Assembly: GCF_014645555.1 (NCBI RefSeq)
Contig: NZ_BMLY01000006.1
Coordinates: 62,001 to 126,000, forward strand
Length of the DNA: 64,000 nucleotides
Source: Silvimonas amylolytica
GTDB lineage: Bacteria; Pseudomonadota; Gammaproteobacteria; Burkholderiales; Chitinibacteraceae
Direction of reading: 5' to 3'
Below, piece by piece: positions 5,863 through 10,763 of this stretch (positions are counted from its first letter, which is position 1; each line of letters starts with the position of its first letter). Under the pieces are notes generated by a model. That model saw only the letters and a program-made list of their open reading frames with translations, did no database searches and was not told where the DNA came from. Position numbers and translations under genes: made by a program.

Positions 5863-6798
5863 ATGGCTGATTCCGATTTCGTTGCTGGCCCGGAGAGTGC
5901 CGCAGGGTTCCGTTGTGGTTTTGTCGCCATCGTGGGCCGTCCTAATGTGGGCAAGTCCACGTTGATGAACCATCTGATCGGACAGAAGATCAGTATTACT
6001 TCGCGCAAGGCGCAAACGACGCGCCATCGCATCACGGGTGTGTATACCACTGAAGCGGCGCAGTTCGTTTTTGTTGACACGCCTGGTTTCCAGACCAAAT
6101 ACAAAAACGCATTGAATGATGCGATGAACCGTAATGTGACCACAACGCTGGCCGACGTGGACGCAGTGCTGTTCCTGGTAGAGGCGGGCCAGTTTGGTGC
6201 TGCCGATGAAGCCGTGCTCAAGCTTCTGCCGAAACACCGCCCGGTTCTGCTGGTGATCACCAAGATCGATCAGTTGCCGCAAAAAGAAGCTTTGCTACCG
6301 TTCATTGAAAAAATTGCCGAACGGTTCGAGTTTCATGCGATTGTCCCTGTTTCGGCCCTGCGCGCCCAGCAACTGGATGTCTTGCTGCAAACGGTACAGC
6401 CTTTGTTGCCTGAGTCGGTGCCGATGTATCCGGAAGATCACATCACGGATCGCAACTCACGCTTTCTGGCCGCTGAGATTGTTCGTGAAAAGCTCTTTCG
6501 CATGCTGGGCGACGAACTGCCCTATGCCATGACGGTGGAAATCGAGAAGTTCGACGAAGAAACCATGCGAGACGGTCGCCCGTTGTATCGCATCTACGCG
6601 GCGGTGCTGGTTGATCGTGATGGCCAAAAAGCGATCCTGATCGGCAAGAATGGTGAAAAGCTCAAGCGGATTGCCACCGAGTCTCGCCAGGATATGGAAA
6701 AGCTCTTTGATGCCAAGGTTTATCTGGAAGTCTGGGTCAAGGTCAAAAGCGGCTGGGCGGACGACACCCGCGTATTGCGCCAGCAAGGCTTTGAATAA
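5863..6798 (+). CDS. era: GTPase Era
   Basis: Era is an essential GTPase that binds the 3' end of 16S rRNA and assists 30S subunit assembly. The P-loop GRPNVGKS is at residues 25-32, the G3 motif DTPG is in VDTPGFQ, and the G4 motif is TKID. A C-terminal KH domain includes the GxxG-type loop [11 protein letters not shown]. The 311-residue length is normal, with a slightly longer N-terminus (about 15 extra residues) than the E. coli protein. It lies downstream of rnc, the classical rnc-era-recO arrangement. Confidence 0.97.
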
Positions 6799-6822: not shown

Positions 6823-7599
6823 TTGGCGCGACGCCCGGCTGGTTCTCCCCCCAAAGTGTCCCGTACCCGCGGTGGCAAAGGCCAGCCGCGCGTCGACACA
6901 CAACCCGTCTTTATCCTGCATCAGTACGCATGGCGAGAAACCAGCCGGCTGATTGAGGTGTTCTCACGCGACTACGGTCGTATCTCTATTGCCGCGCGTG
7001 GCGTGCAACGGCCAGGTTCACAACTCAGAGGCACGCTCCTGGCTTTTCAGCCCTTGCTGATGTCCTGGTTTGGTGGCGCTGAGGTCAAAACACTGCATGC
7101 GGCGGAATGGCAGGGCGGTATCACCCAGCCCTCAGGGCTTTCATTATTGTGCGGGTTCTACCTGAACGAATTGCTGGTGCGGTTGATGCCGCGTGAAGAA
7201 CCCCAGCCCGTCCTGTTTGCCGCTTATTACGAGGCGATCCGTGACCTGGCGGGTTTGCCAACAGAAGCCGGTAGCGCGGTCGAGCCAGTTTTGCGTGGGT
7301 TCGAACTTAAATTGCTCACGGAACTCGGATATGGCGTAGATCTTGCTCACGATACTGCGGGTAGGGATGTGCAAGCCGACCAACAATATGACTTTGTCGC
7401 AGGTCAGGGATTAATACTTGCTGACAACGGACGAGGTCGCTTCGATGGCGCTGTGCTGCAGGAACTGGCAGCGGGTCGGCTGGCTGACGAGCGTGTTCTC
7501 GCTCAAGGCAAGCTCCTGATGCGACAAGCGCTGACTGTCGCATTGGGTGACGCGCCTTTGCATACCCGGCAGCTGTTGCTGGACTTGCAGCGTATCTGA
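6823..7599 (+). CDS. recO: DNA repair protein RecO
   Basis: RecO works with RecR in loading RecA onto SSB-coated single-stranded DNA during gap repair. The protein has the N-terminal OB-fold block (FILHQYAWRETSRLIEVFSRDYGRISIAARG) typical of RecO and a helical C-terminal domain. I chose the TTG at 6823 because GGAG at 6812-6815 is well placed. That gives 258 residues with a basic, Pro/Gly-rich extension of about 25 residues before the conserved domain. A GTG at 6856 is a possible shorter start. The zinc-binding cysteines of some RecO proteins are absent. Confidence 0.92.
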   Translation: MARRPAGSPPKVSRTRGGKGQPRVDTQPVFILHQYAWRETSRLIEVFSRDYGRISIAARGVQRPGSQLRGTLLAFQPLLMSWFGGAEVKTLHAAEWQGGITQPSGLSLLCGFYLNELLVRLMPREEPQPVLFAAYYEAIRDLAGLPTEAGSAVEPVLRGFELKLLTELGYGVDLAHDTAGRDVQADQQYDFVAGQGLILADNGRGRFDGAVLQELAAGRLADERVLAQGKLLMRQALTVALGDAPLHTRQLLLDLQRI

Positions 7600-7760: not shown

Positions 7761-8531
7761 ATGGCTGGTGACCTTTCGCTTGGCGTAAATATTGATCACG
7801 TTGCAACCCTGCGCAACGCACGTGATGCCCGTTATCCCAGCCCGGTGTTCGCCGCCCAGGTGGCAGAGCAGGCCGGTGCGGATCACATTACCGTGCATCT
7901 GCGTGAAGACCGTCGCCATGTGGGCGATGAGGACGTCAGGCTGATCAAGGCTTTGTTGCAGACGCGCATGAATCTGCAAATGGCGCTCAATCCATCTTTG
8001 CTGGATTTTGTTCTCGGCATTGCGCCGCAGGATGTGTGCCTGGTCCCGGCCGATGGCGATCAGCAGGGTAGCTCGCATGGGCTTGATGTGCGTGGCAACA
8101 AAGCCGAGGTGGGCGAGTACATCAAAAAACTCAGCGCAGCTGGCGTCAGAACCAGTGTCTTGCTGGCGCCAGACTTCGAGCAGATCCGCCTGGCCCATGC
8201 GCTGGGCGCGCAAGCGATCGAGCTTGATACAGGCAGGTACGCAGCCGCACTTGATCGCCGGGCCAGAGAGACGGAATATGCGCGGGTCAAGGTGGCTGCG
8301 GAATATGCCGCTAATCTGGGCCTGGTGGTTTCCGCCGGGCATGGTTTGAACTATCACAATGCAGAGCCCATTGCCGCCATTGCTCAGGTTTCTGAACTGA
8401 ACATTGGCCACGCTATCATTGCGCATGCATTGATTGTCGGGTTGCCGACGGCTGTGCGTGAAATGAAAATGTTGATGATCCGTGCGCGTTTAACCAGCAA
8501 GCGCGAATTGCCGGACGATGACGAAAACTGA
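7761..8531 (+). CDS. pdxJ: PdxJ-family protein with altered active site (annotated role: pyridoxine 5'-phosphate synthase)
   Basis: PdxJ condenses deoxyxylulose 5-phosphate with 3-amino-2-oxopropyl phosphate to form pyridoxine 5'-phosphate in vitamin B6 synthesis. The 256-residue TIM barrel is full length and starts at ATG 7761 with GGAGAG upstream. Conserved features include VNIDH (residues 9-13), Arg21, His46 in TVHLREDRRH, Glu154, AGHG with His194, and LNIGHAI. Two blocks differ from the family. The catalytic Glu in RMNLEMA is Gln73 here, and the phosphate-substrate loop usually written PEKRQEVTTEGG is PADGDQQGSSHG (residues 96-107). The reading frame through both blocks is clean, so these are substitutions rather than a frameshift. 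Its place after recO is the orthologous locus, but the usual downstream acpS is missing. The reaction it performs is therefore uncertain. Confidence 0.85.
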   Translation: MAGDLSLGVNIDHVATLRNARDARYPSPVFAAQVAEQAGADHITVHLREDRRHVGDEDVRLIKALLQTRMNLQMALNPSLLDFVLGIAPQDVCLVPADGDQQGSSHGLDVRGNKAEVGEYIKKLSAAGVRTSVLLAPDFEQIRLAHALGAQAIELDTGRYAAALDRRARETEYARVKVAAEYAANLGLVVSAGHGLNYHNAEPIAAIAQVSELNIGHAIIAHALIVGLPTAVREMKMLMIRARLTSKRELPDDDEN

Positions 8532-8653: not shown

Positions 8654-9022
8654 ATGATCAGCGTTACCCATGAGCCAGGTTATGTATCGGTAGCGGTTTT
8701 CAATGAATTTACCGTGCACGATTTTCGTCAGTTTGAAGATGACGTGCGCTACAAGATTAATTTTGAGGGCAAACCCAATCTCTTGTTCGACATGACCGCC
8801 ATGGTGCGCTACACGCTGGACATGGCGGTTGAGGAATACAAGTTTGCCAAAACGCATCGCAACGATTTCGGCCGGGTTGCCGTTGTAACCACTGACCAGT
8901 GGGTGGCCTGGTCCGCGTGGGTGAACACGTTGTTCTCCGAAGCGCGTATCGAAATCTTTGATAACCTGGAAGAAGCCGTTAACTGGGTACGCCAGGACGG
9001 AACACAAGGCGCAGCCGCGTAA
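8654..9022 (+). CDS. SpoIIAA-like STAS/SEC14-type protein
   Basis: This 122-residue protein has the alternating beta/alpha pattern and aromatic-rich core of the SpoIIAA-like family (STAS/SEC14 fold). The motif LLFDMTAM lies near residue 45 and a DNLEEAVNWV helix is at the end. Members are thought to bind small lipophilic molecules or act as partner-switch domains; no specific role is known. The start ATG at 8654 is preceded by AGGGGG. It lies 22 bases upstream of the large PilZ-like gene and is probably co-transcribed with it, which may hint at a shared signalling role. Confidence 0.72.
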   Translation: MISVTHEPGYVSVAVFNEFTVHDFRQFEDDVRYKINFEGKPNLLFDMTAMVRYTLDMAVEEYKFAKTHRNDFGRVAVVTTDQWVAWSAWVNTLFSEARIEIFDNLEEAVNWVRQDGTQGAAA

Positions 9023-9044
9023 GACGGTCAAGCACAGGAAAACC

Positions 9045-10763
9045 ATGAGATCGTTTCTCAATAATTTGTTCTCAAGAGATACATCCCCGCTTGAGAACCC
9101 ACGACAAGTCACTGCCTGGTGCAAAAAGCTTGAACTGGCAGACCCGCAAGCACAGCGAGCGAAGGTCGCGTCGGTGGTCAACGAATTTTTGTCTGTGGGT
9201 GGCAAGCCATCCCCCGATATCCTGCAGGCGCTGATCAAGATCGATGAAAGCGTACAGATGGGCTATGAGCGCATCCGCTACCAGTACGTTTCCAATCCGC
9301 GCATGCCCAAAGAGATCGAGCAAAGCCTCTGGCAAGACATTACCGGGCTGGCTGACTCCATGGTCAAGGCCTATCTGCGCTTTGCCAAGGTCGAAGCGGA
9401 TGGCGAGGAAAAGCAGGCCTACGATGCCATGATGCCGCTGGTGCTGGCGCGTTGCCTGCATTACGTAGGGGTGCTGGCCAAATGGCATTACTTTCGTTTT
9501 GATCGCGTGCCGGGGCAGCTCTGGTCACAAGCGCATAGCCTGTACCGGCTTTCCGAGATCGACGGGTTCGATTGCAATCCGTTTCCGCTCTACCCGCATC
9601 ACGGTGCAGAAGTCAGTTCTTGTGCCGATGAGTATATTCAGCTGTTGATGCTGAATACGGTGTCGTCCAATAACCTGGCGGTGCGTCAACTCGATTGGGT
9701 CGATCAATGGCTGGATAAATGGTCGCGTAATGTCCTGATTGCGCGCCGCTATCAGCCGGATCATCACCACTACTGTGTCAATTTGAGCGGGAAGCAGGGG
9801 CCGGAAAAAATTGGCGACGACAGTCAGGGTGATCCTTATCGCTACTGGGGTATTTACGAACTGTTGAATGAGGTGCAGGGACTGATTGCGCGATTGGAAG
9901 CCGGGGCTTCTCCTGCCAGTCTGGGTTTGGGTAATGACGTGCGCGGCCCCGCCTGCCTTGAACTCTTGAAGCACCTGGACGTGTTCTGGGGTATGGCCGT
10001 ACGCAATGCCCAGTTCACCCGTAGTGATCGCCGAGACGTGCATAAAGAAGCGGACGTGGTGTACGGGCTGGATCGGCTGCATCGCAAAATTCGCGCCGAC
10101 AACGAGAAGTTTTCTCGCCAGCCAGACGAAGCCAAAACCGGCGTTGATTACGATGAAGTCATGGATATGCGACTCTATGGTTTCGTCTCGGCGCGGACGC
10201 GCTCTCGTCAAGCGCAGGCACCTCAAATTGTGCAGCGTAATGATCCTGCCGACTGGCAATCCTGGCGTGTTGAAAATGAGTCTGAAGGTGGCTACGGCGC
10301 CACGCTGGAGGCCGAAGGCGCAGAATGGGTGCGCCCGGGCGTGCTGGTGGGTATGCGTTTTGGGCCGGAAGACAGCTGGAAGGTGTGTGTTGTGCGCCGG
10401 ATCTCCCGCATGAATGAGTTCCAGATCTACGCAGGCTTGCAGTTGCTCAGCGCGACGCCGGTCGCGGTGAATATCCAGACGACCACTGTTGCCGCCGCGC
10501 CGCCGCGCGCACTGGAGGTGACGGACTTTGCCGAGTTTGATAGCACGGCCTTGCACTCCGCAAATTCAGCACTGTACTTGCCGTACGAGATCGATGGCGT
10601 AACCAGCAATACCTTGCTGATGCATTCCGCCAATTATGATGCGGATCGCACCTATGAGGTTCAGGCGCGGGACCGCCACTTCACAGTGAACCTGACCCGT
10701 TCGCTGGACAAAGGCGTGGACTGGACCTGGGTAACGGTGCAAGTGCTGGGCCAAAAGCACTGA
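9045..10763 (+). CDS. Large cytoplasmic protein with a C-terminal PilZ-like c-di-GMP binding domain
   Basis: I do not recognise the N-terminal 370 residues, which look helical and soluble, without a signal peptide or membrane segment. The C-terminal part has the two PilZ signatures in the right order: RxxxR at residues 384-388 (RTRSR) and NxSxxG at 411-416 (NESEGG). Beta-barrel-like strands follow (VLVGMRF, WKVCVVRRI, IYAGLQLL). PilZ domains bind cyclic di-GMP, so this is probably a second-messenger receptor controlling motility, biofilm or secretion; the output is unknown. ATG 9045 has AGGAAAA upstream and gives 572 residues. A strong terminator follows the gene. The domain call rests on motifs read by eye. 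Confidence 0.6.
   Translation: MRSFLNNLFSRDTSPLENPRQVTAWCKKLELADPQAQRAKVASVVNEFLSVGGKPSPDILQALIKIDESVQMGYERIRYQYVSNPRMPKEIEQSLWQDITGLADSMVKAYLRFAKVEADGEEKQAYDAMMPLVLARCLHYVGVLAKWHYFRFDRVPGQLWSQAHSLYRLSEIDGFDCNPFPLYPHHGAEVSSCADEYIQLLMLNTVSSNNLAVRQLDWVDQWLDKWSRNVLIARRYQPDHHHYCVNLSGKQGPEKIGDDSQGDPYRYWGIYELLNEVQGLIARLEAGASPASLGLGNDVRGPACLELLKHLDVFWGMAVRNAQFTRSDRRDVHKEADVVYGLDRLHRKIRADNEKFSRQPDEAKTGVDYDEVMDMRLYGFVSARTRSRQAQAPQIVQRNDPADWQSWRVENESEGGYGATLEAEGAEWVRPGVLVGMRFGPEDSWKVCVVRRISRMNEFQIYAGLQLLSATPVAVNIQTTTVAAAPPRALEVTDFAEFDSTALHSANSALYLPYEIDGVTSNTLLMHSANYDADRTYEVQARDRHFTVNLTRSLDKGVDWTWVTVQVLGQKH

Follow-up and report, generated by a model that had tools for sequence, protein, structure and literature searches.

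PdxJ, as PNP synthase, forms PNP by condensing DXP with the product of PdxA. Two kinds of PdxJ are distinguished here under working names of this analysis: class I, with structures from E. coli (1m5w) and Burkholderia pseudomallei (3gk0), and class II, described by the NCBI model NF003626 and a structure from Stenotrophomonas maltophilia (6w6a). Residues 95-105 of PdxJ form an active-site loop that opens and closes, as excerpts of one paper describe it (PMC10471632), and pdxJ is used as a signature gene for the DXP-dependent B6 pathway in passages of another (PMC9997740). For a Chryseobacterium, two pdxJ homologues are mentioned in passages that are silent on the active sites (PMC8136213). In plants, PDX1.2 is characterised in a further paper as a non-catalytic pseudoenzyme that regulates the synthesis of B6 (PMC6829848). 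Searches of open-licence literature brought up no account of PdxJ copies that are displaced or altered, though their wording may miss other spellings.

The window, by which we mean the whole analysed stretch of 64,000 nucleotides from Silvimonas amylolytica (NCBI RefSeq assembly GCF_014645555.1, contig NZ_BMLY01000006.1, positions 62,001 to 126,000), carries an altered class I pdxJ, hereafter pdxJ-I, at the locus usual for its family. The features referred to below are the following, with residues in E. coli numbering.

5863..6798, + strand: era, upstream syntenic neighbour of pdxJ-I, name taken from the translation (synteny)
6823..7599, + strand: recO, directly upstream of pdxJ-I, start codon unsettled (synteny; PF11967/PF02565)
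7761..8531, + strand: pdxJ-I, class I PdxJ at its native locus, active site altered, 256 aa (translation, PF03740 at 298 bits, synteny, dN/dS)
7896..7898, + strand: retained catalytic His45, codon CAT (CAT or CAC among the four Silvimonas, amino acid constant)
7977..7979, + strand: Gln72, codon CAA (Glu in 42/42 other class I and 19/19 class II proteins; CAA in all four Silvimonas)
8046..8081, + strand: replaced active-site lid, PADGDQQGSSHG for PEKRQEVTTEGG, Thr102 lost (alignment; window residues 99-104 with pLDDT <50)
8226..8228, + strand: Asp at the His155 position (EIHTG to ELDTG), codon GAT (alignment)
8340..8342, + strand: retained catalytic His193, codon CAT (alignment; codon data)
8406..8411, + strand: Gly215-His216, which we take to be phosphate-site residues (kept in 17/17 altered copies)
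8654..9022, + strand: SpoIIAA-like gene, downstream syntenic neighbour (PF11964); marks the site without pdxJ in class II-only relatives
9042..10763, + strand: conserved downstream frame, start unsettled (synteny; without Pfam match)

The active site of the PdxJ encoded beside recO

The frame at 7761-8531 is open throughout, as an earlier note on this DNA had stated, and its translation is a PdxJ-family protein of 256 residues. Upstream of it lie frames assigned to lepA, lepB, rnc, era and recO; Pfam confirms rnc and recO, and the names lepA, lepB and era are taken from the translations. The frame at 9042-10763, which follows the SpoIIAA-like gene, is conserved at those family loci read that carry a class I pdxJ, 13 with class I alone and 5 with two copies, and a Pfam search with it gave no match. 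Close relatives of the window protein (PdxJ-I) are encoded by the named Silvimonas terrae record (96% identity) and by Amantichitinum ursilacus (70% identity).

By profile, PdxJ-I belongs to the PdxJ family. It passes PF03740 (298 bits, cut-off 24.5), TIGR00559 (261 bits, cut-off 192.75) and the NCBI equivalog NF003625 (298.4 bits, cut-off 190), so that an annotation pipeline would still name it PNP synthase, and NF003627 likewise calls it PNP synthase above cut-off. The best-matching NCBI equivalog, NF003623 for class I PNP synthase, has a cut-off of 347, which PdxJ-I fails with 310.9 bits; the Amantichitinum copy also scores 310.9 and the intact relative G007 385.6 bits. An AlphaFold2 model of PdxJ-I has a pLDDT of 84.5, with most of the lid (residues 99-104, window numbering) below 50, and its 16 best PDB matches are all PdxJ chains, the first with a TM score of 0.89 by query length; the model indicates that the PdxJ barrel fold is retained.

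The two central substitutions described in the earlier note are both borne out by the sequence. The codon CAA at 7977-7979 places Gln at the position of E. coli Glu72, and the stretch 8046-8081 reads PADGDQQGSSHG and not PEKRQEVTTEGG, with Gly at the position of Thr102. The catalytic histidines His45 and His193 are retained, as are Gly194, Gly215 and His216 of the phosphate site, again in agreement with that note. Two changes go beyond it, Asp for His155 (8226-8228) and Ser for Asn190. The catalytic quartet Glu72/His45/His193/Thr102 is incomplete in the window protein, two histidines being kept while Glu72 is Gln and Thr102 is Gly, and in the alignment Glu72 and Thr102 are each present in 61/61 other PdxJ proteins of both classes. 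PdxJ-I has thus lost residues that are universal among its relatives, as a pseudoenzyme would. The Silvimonas proteins keep 12 of the 14 ligand or catalytic residues, with Arg20, Arg47, His52, Glu153 and both histidines present in 4/4, and across the four species the new lid shows the same Asp97, Gly98 and His105. The class I copy of Amantichitinum keeps Glu72 and has lost His45, His52 and Thr102.

For a statistical comparison, an active-site set was defined as 14 ligand or catalytic residues, with roles assigned as in UniProt, together with the lid, residues 95-105, and 42 other class I PdxJ proteins (13 of the same family, E. coli included) served as a reference set that yields 62 strictly invariant positions. 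At least one of the four Silvimonas proteins deviates at 9 of the 62, and 8 of these 9 belong to the active-site set (Fisher p = 2.7e-4); all four deviate at 8 invariant positions, 7 of them in the set (Fisher p = 0.001). The concentration of the Silvimonas changes in the active site exceeds chance. That the changes were confined to chemistry-bearing positions, as had been proposed, is nearly accurate at the invariant positions, where only Phe133 to Leu lies outside the set, but not for the protein as a whole, which has diverged: the four Silvimonas proteins show 60-62% identity to the nearest intact relative in the set.

A class II PdxJ in the same genome and the distribution of both classes

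The earlier note had suggested searching the genome for a second pdxJ with an intact site and for other B6 genes. A profile search finds two PF03740 matches in the window genome, and the second (G000:C2:120251-120961) is a PdxJ of class II that has Glu72, Thr102, His45 and His193, as is usual for the active site; it lies elsewhere in the genome and is about 35% identical to the native class I copy. It scores 342 bits against NF003626 (cut-off 222), and its best PDB match is 6w6a. Both pdxA and dxs are present, and a PdxS profile search of the window genome gave no match. Since the class II protein has the usual site residues in a genome with pdxA and dxs and without a PdxS match, it is likely the PNP synthase of S. 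amylolytica. A DXP-independent backup route was rejected, there being no PdxS match. A search for PdxH (TIGR00558, E 0.001) gave no match in 26 of the 27 family genomes covered, that of the window among them and irrespective of their PdxJ class; the congener G003 has a match below cut-off (89.7 bits vs 180). Almost 1000 genomes that have PdxA and PdxJ and lack PdxH are counted in passages of the signature-gene paper (PMC9997740).

Among 43 genomes of the Chitinibacteraceae, two PdxJ matches occur only in the four Silvimonas and in Amantichitinum, and the other 38 have one; sequences were read for 13 class I-only and 10 class II-only genomes of these, and 15 were put in class II by score alone. 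At the 14 ligand or catalytic positions, every one of the 13 class I copies without a class II partner is intact, and all five copies that stand beside class II are altered. The order era-recO-pdxJ-SpoIIAA-like is common to the 13 class I-only copies read and the altered copies, so that pdxJ-I has kept its native locus. In the class II-only relatives for which the recO locus was read the order is era-recO-SpoIIAA-like, with no PdxJ match there in 9/9. The altered five form one clade (100/100) with a long stem within the class I clade of the family (99.6/100). As the class II proteins of Silvimonas and Amantichitinum group (98*, quick tree) with those of three genera that carry class II alone, a single class II gain, followed by loss or retention of class I, would be the simplest history.

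The two classes also exchange within single genera of the family: by sequence, G007 and G033 of genus g5 carry class I and G016 class II, and in genus g11 class I is found in G022 and others and class II in G013 and G035. In other families of the order, class II lies directly after recO in two of three class II-only genomes whose recO locus was read (G046, L111, and G053, L099, not G054); outside the window's family, the recO site may also hold class II. Searched for with a degenerate DNA pattern, the Gln72 motif appeared in 2/399 genomes of the order, G000 and G001, both of them Silvimonas; the count is a lower bound, since the set included neither the other two Silvimonas nor Amantichitinum and the motif has spellings outside the pattern. 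A peptide-pattern scan of the genome collection returned three loci, namely Silvimonas terrae, Amantichitinum and an intact copy in Denitrificimonas caeni. In G081, a class I-only genome of another family, His216 is replaced by Tyr and the branch is very long.

Across the class, a survey of 369 genomes found a PdxJ match in 314 and two matches in 11. Besides the window's, ten genomes thus have two matches: five hold pairs of class I and class II (G480, G505, G684, G779 and G786, the class II of the last cut by a contig end), four (G550, G580, G729, G750) have what appears, from coordinates alone, to be a single gene in two pieces, and the second match of G656 lies below cut-off. The case at G750:C1:1499626-1500317 (L124, L131) is a single PdxJ in two overlapping frames with a stop, as from a frameshift or sequencing error. 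Class I is altered beside class II in G779 and G684, which belong to one family, and intact beside class II in G480, G505 and G786 of other families. As these three genomes show, co-residence with class II does not always bring alteration of class I.

The family of G779 and G684 repeats the pattern independently. PdxJ matches were found in 46 of its 48 genomes, 26 with class I only, 13 with both classes and 7 with nothing but class II. None of the 26 class I copies without a class II partner is changed at the 14 positions, whereas 11/12 full-length co-resident copies are altered there and the twelfth, from G817, is altered in the lid (Fisher p = 1e-8 by genome, ignoring relatedness); G818, the class I gene of which is split over two contigs, was left out of these counts, and its fragments also have an altered lid. 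The 12 co-resident copies form one clade (96*), so that the two families represent two independent histories, not 17. An independent-pairs test of class II against alteration has 3 pairs, too few for significance, and the link between the two rests on two clades. On the tree that shows this clade, the changes of Glu72 take at least three steps, those of His45 five and those of Thr102 six, and Glu72 to Gln arose in both families. Where frames are visible, altered pdxJ genes of this family (L165, L167, L169-L171, L173, L174, L176) lie between genes that we take, from their translations, to be sdhAB-like and acpS-like, and so do the intact ones in L180 and L181.

Selection, residue retention and explanations of the altered copy

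Between Silvimonas species, dN/dS of the altered pdxJ-I is 0.018-0.053 (6 pairs), with bootstrap upper bounds of at most 0.091, although for the three pairs involving G003 dS saturation left 39 to 90 of 300 resamples without a value; a slightly longer alignment yields 0.027-0.053. These ratios fall inside or beneath those of the family's intact class I pairs (0.022-0.139 in the 25/78 pairs with dS <2.5), and for the neighbouring rnc and era genes the Silvimonas values are 0.017-0.055. Codons for His45, His193 and His216 vary synonymously while the amino acid stays constant. In the lid, 7/12 codons are variable in amino acid, compared with 30/231 elsewhere. The frame is open in all five genomes, the four Silvimonas and Amantichitinum. 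Given its low dN/dS, PdxJ-I in Silvimonas is maintained under strong purifying selection and is not decaying; it is kept by selection, as a pseudoenzyme would be. In the second family, seven pairs of 86-96% identity give 0.021-0.055, with dS >1 in each, and wider pairs give up to 0.25. Purifying selection was measured within Silvimonas and in close second-family pairs, Amantichitinum being represented by one genome.

Over the 17 altered copies, Asn9, His12, Gly194, Gly215 and His216 are kept in all and Arg20 in 16. Arg47, His52, Glu153 and His193 are retained in 15 each, Asp11 in 12, His45 in 10, Glu72 in 7 and Thr102 in 5, so that D11, R20, H45, R47, H52, E72, T102, E153 and H193 are each lost in one lineage or another. 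According to the residue roles assigned above, most of the kept residues surround the phosphate of the amino-ketone substrate, and those lost serve acid-base work or the DXP side; His12, which is kept and which we likewise assign to the DXP side, runs against a clean split.

The account towards which we lean, by a modest preference, is that of a displaced class I PdxJ: class II would have taken over PNP synthesis, and the old protein would have been kept for a second, probably non-catalytic role. On this account, an ancestor of Silvimonas and Amantichitinum would have acquired a class II PdxJ from outside and handed PNP synthesis to it, whereupon the native class I protein would have lost the lid and part of its acid-base machinery, and with them presumably the synthesis of PNP; strong purifying selection since then would reflect the second role. 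Such a role would need the barrel and the phosphate pocket (Asn9, His12, Gly194, Gly215, His216), not Glu72, Thr102 or a closing lid. It would most likely be non-catalytic, namely the binding of PNP, PLP, an intermediate of the pathway or a similar phosphorylated metabolite, by which B6 synthesis might be buffered or regulated. Counting against displacement, the 12 of 14 residues kept in Silvimonas are more than a pure scaffold should need, and the new lid may have a new use, given its constant Asp97, Gly98 and His105.

Those features are what one would look for in a neofunctionalised enzyme that catalyses with a different substrate or outcome through His45, His193 and the new lid, which is close to the changed substrate or reaction of the earlier note. 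The constancy of both histidines, Arg20, Arg47, His52 and Glu153 in 4/4 Silvimonas, the synonymous change of histidine codons 45 and 193, the three fixed lid residues and the strong purifying selection all agree with it. However, amino-acid changes are denser in the lid than in the remainder, the neighbours (era, recO, the SpoIIAA-like gene and the frame without Pfam match) hint at no metabolic partner, and the sister genus lacks His45 and His52 but has Glu72 while the second family loses other residues, so that no single chemistry fits. As the lineages lose different catalytic residues, loss of PNP synthase chemistry with retention of another role would fit better than one shared new reaction, and we consider the new enzyme unlikely, if a serious contender. 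A weak or conditional PNP synthase that backs up class II would be in keeping with the 12/14 residues retained in Silvimonas and with TIGR00559, NF003625 and NF003627, all of which still call PdxJ-I PNP synthase above their cut-offs; it sits poorly with the presence of Glu72 and Thr102 in 61/61 other PdxJ proteins of both classes, with the loss of other catalytic residues instead in Amantichitinum and much of the second family, and with the missed best-matching equivalog (310.9 vs 347, intact relative 385.6), and appears rather improbable.

The earlier note had also considered a dead enzyme backed up by another B6 route. A backup does exist, but it is the class II PdxJ and no PdxS match accompanies it, and decay is contradicted by the dN/dS values. 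A gene on its way to loss could explain why 9/9 class II-only relatives examined have no PdxJ match at the same site, and the stem branch of the altered clade is long; with dN/dS of 0.018-0.053 and its low bootstrap bounds, an open frame in all five genomes and similarly low values in close second-family pairs, we regard it as highly implausible. Sequencing or assembly error in both blocks can practically be dismissed, since four separate Silvimonas assemblies, the window's included and one of them the named Silvimonas terrae record, agree on Gln72 and have related lids, with synonymous differences around both.

The proposed displaced PdxJ among described B6 proteins

Taken together, the two families present a natural series from class I alone and intact, through class I altered beside class II, to class I lost, with class I intact beside class II in three further genomes; in such a series the displacement of an enzyme and its retention for another use could be followed. 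The use of pdxJ as a signature gene means that altered copies would be counted as synthases, and the NCBI models name the Silvimonas and Amantichitinum copies PNP synthase, yet the gene at the usual locus is probably not the synthase. As a tentative proposal that we hold with less assurance than the displacement in Silvimonas itself, displaced class I PdxJ might constitute a recurrent class of bacterial B6 pseudoenzymes, which could lose base and lid once class II has taken over and be kept as phosphate-ligand-binding regulators or as partners of class II, with Glu72 to Gln as a possible signature of the switch.

Class I PdxJ, as known from E. coli (1m5w) and B. pseudomallei (3gk0), resembles PdxJ-I in its fold (TM 0.89 to 3gk0, about 50% identity), its phosphate pocket and both catalytic histidines, and PdxJ-I stands at the class I locus of its family. 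Unlike class I PdxJ, PdxJ-I has Gln for Glu72, a replaced lid at 96-105, no Thr102 and Asp for His155, and it co-resides with a class II protein. Class II PdxJ (NF003626; 6w6a from S. maltophilia) belongs to the same superfamily and occurs in the same genome; in contrast to PdxJ-I it keeps Glu72, Thr102, His45 and His193, is only about 35% identical and is encoded elsewhere. We take plant PDX1.2 to be of the PDX1/PdxS type and hence of a different protein family. Like PdxJ-I as we interpret it, PDX1.2 is described as a non-catalytic relative of a B6 synthase; it has been studied by experiment, where the role of PdxJ-I is deduced, and it differs in belonging to a eukaryote and to the other B6 pathway. 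If the pseudoenzyme reading is true, the displaced PdxJ would be the bacterial counterpart of plant PDX1.2 in the other route to vitamin B6.
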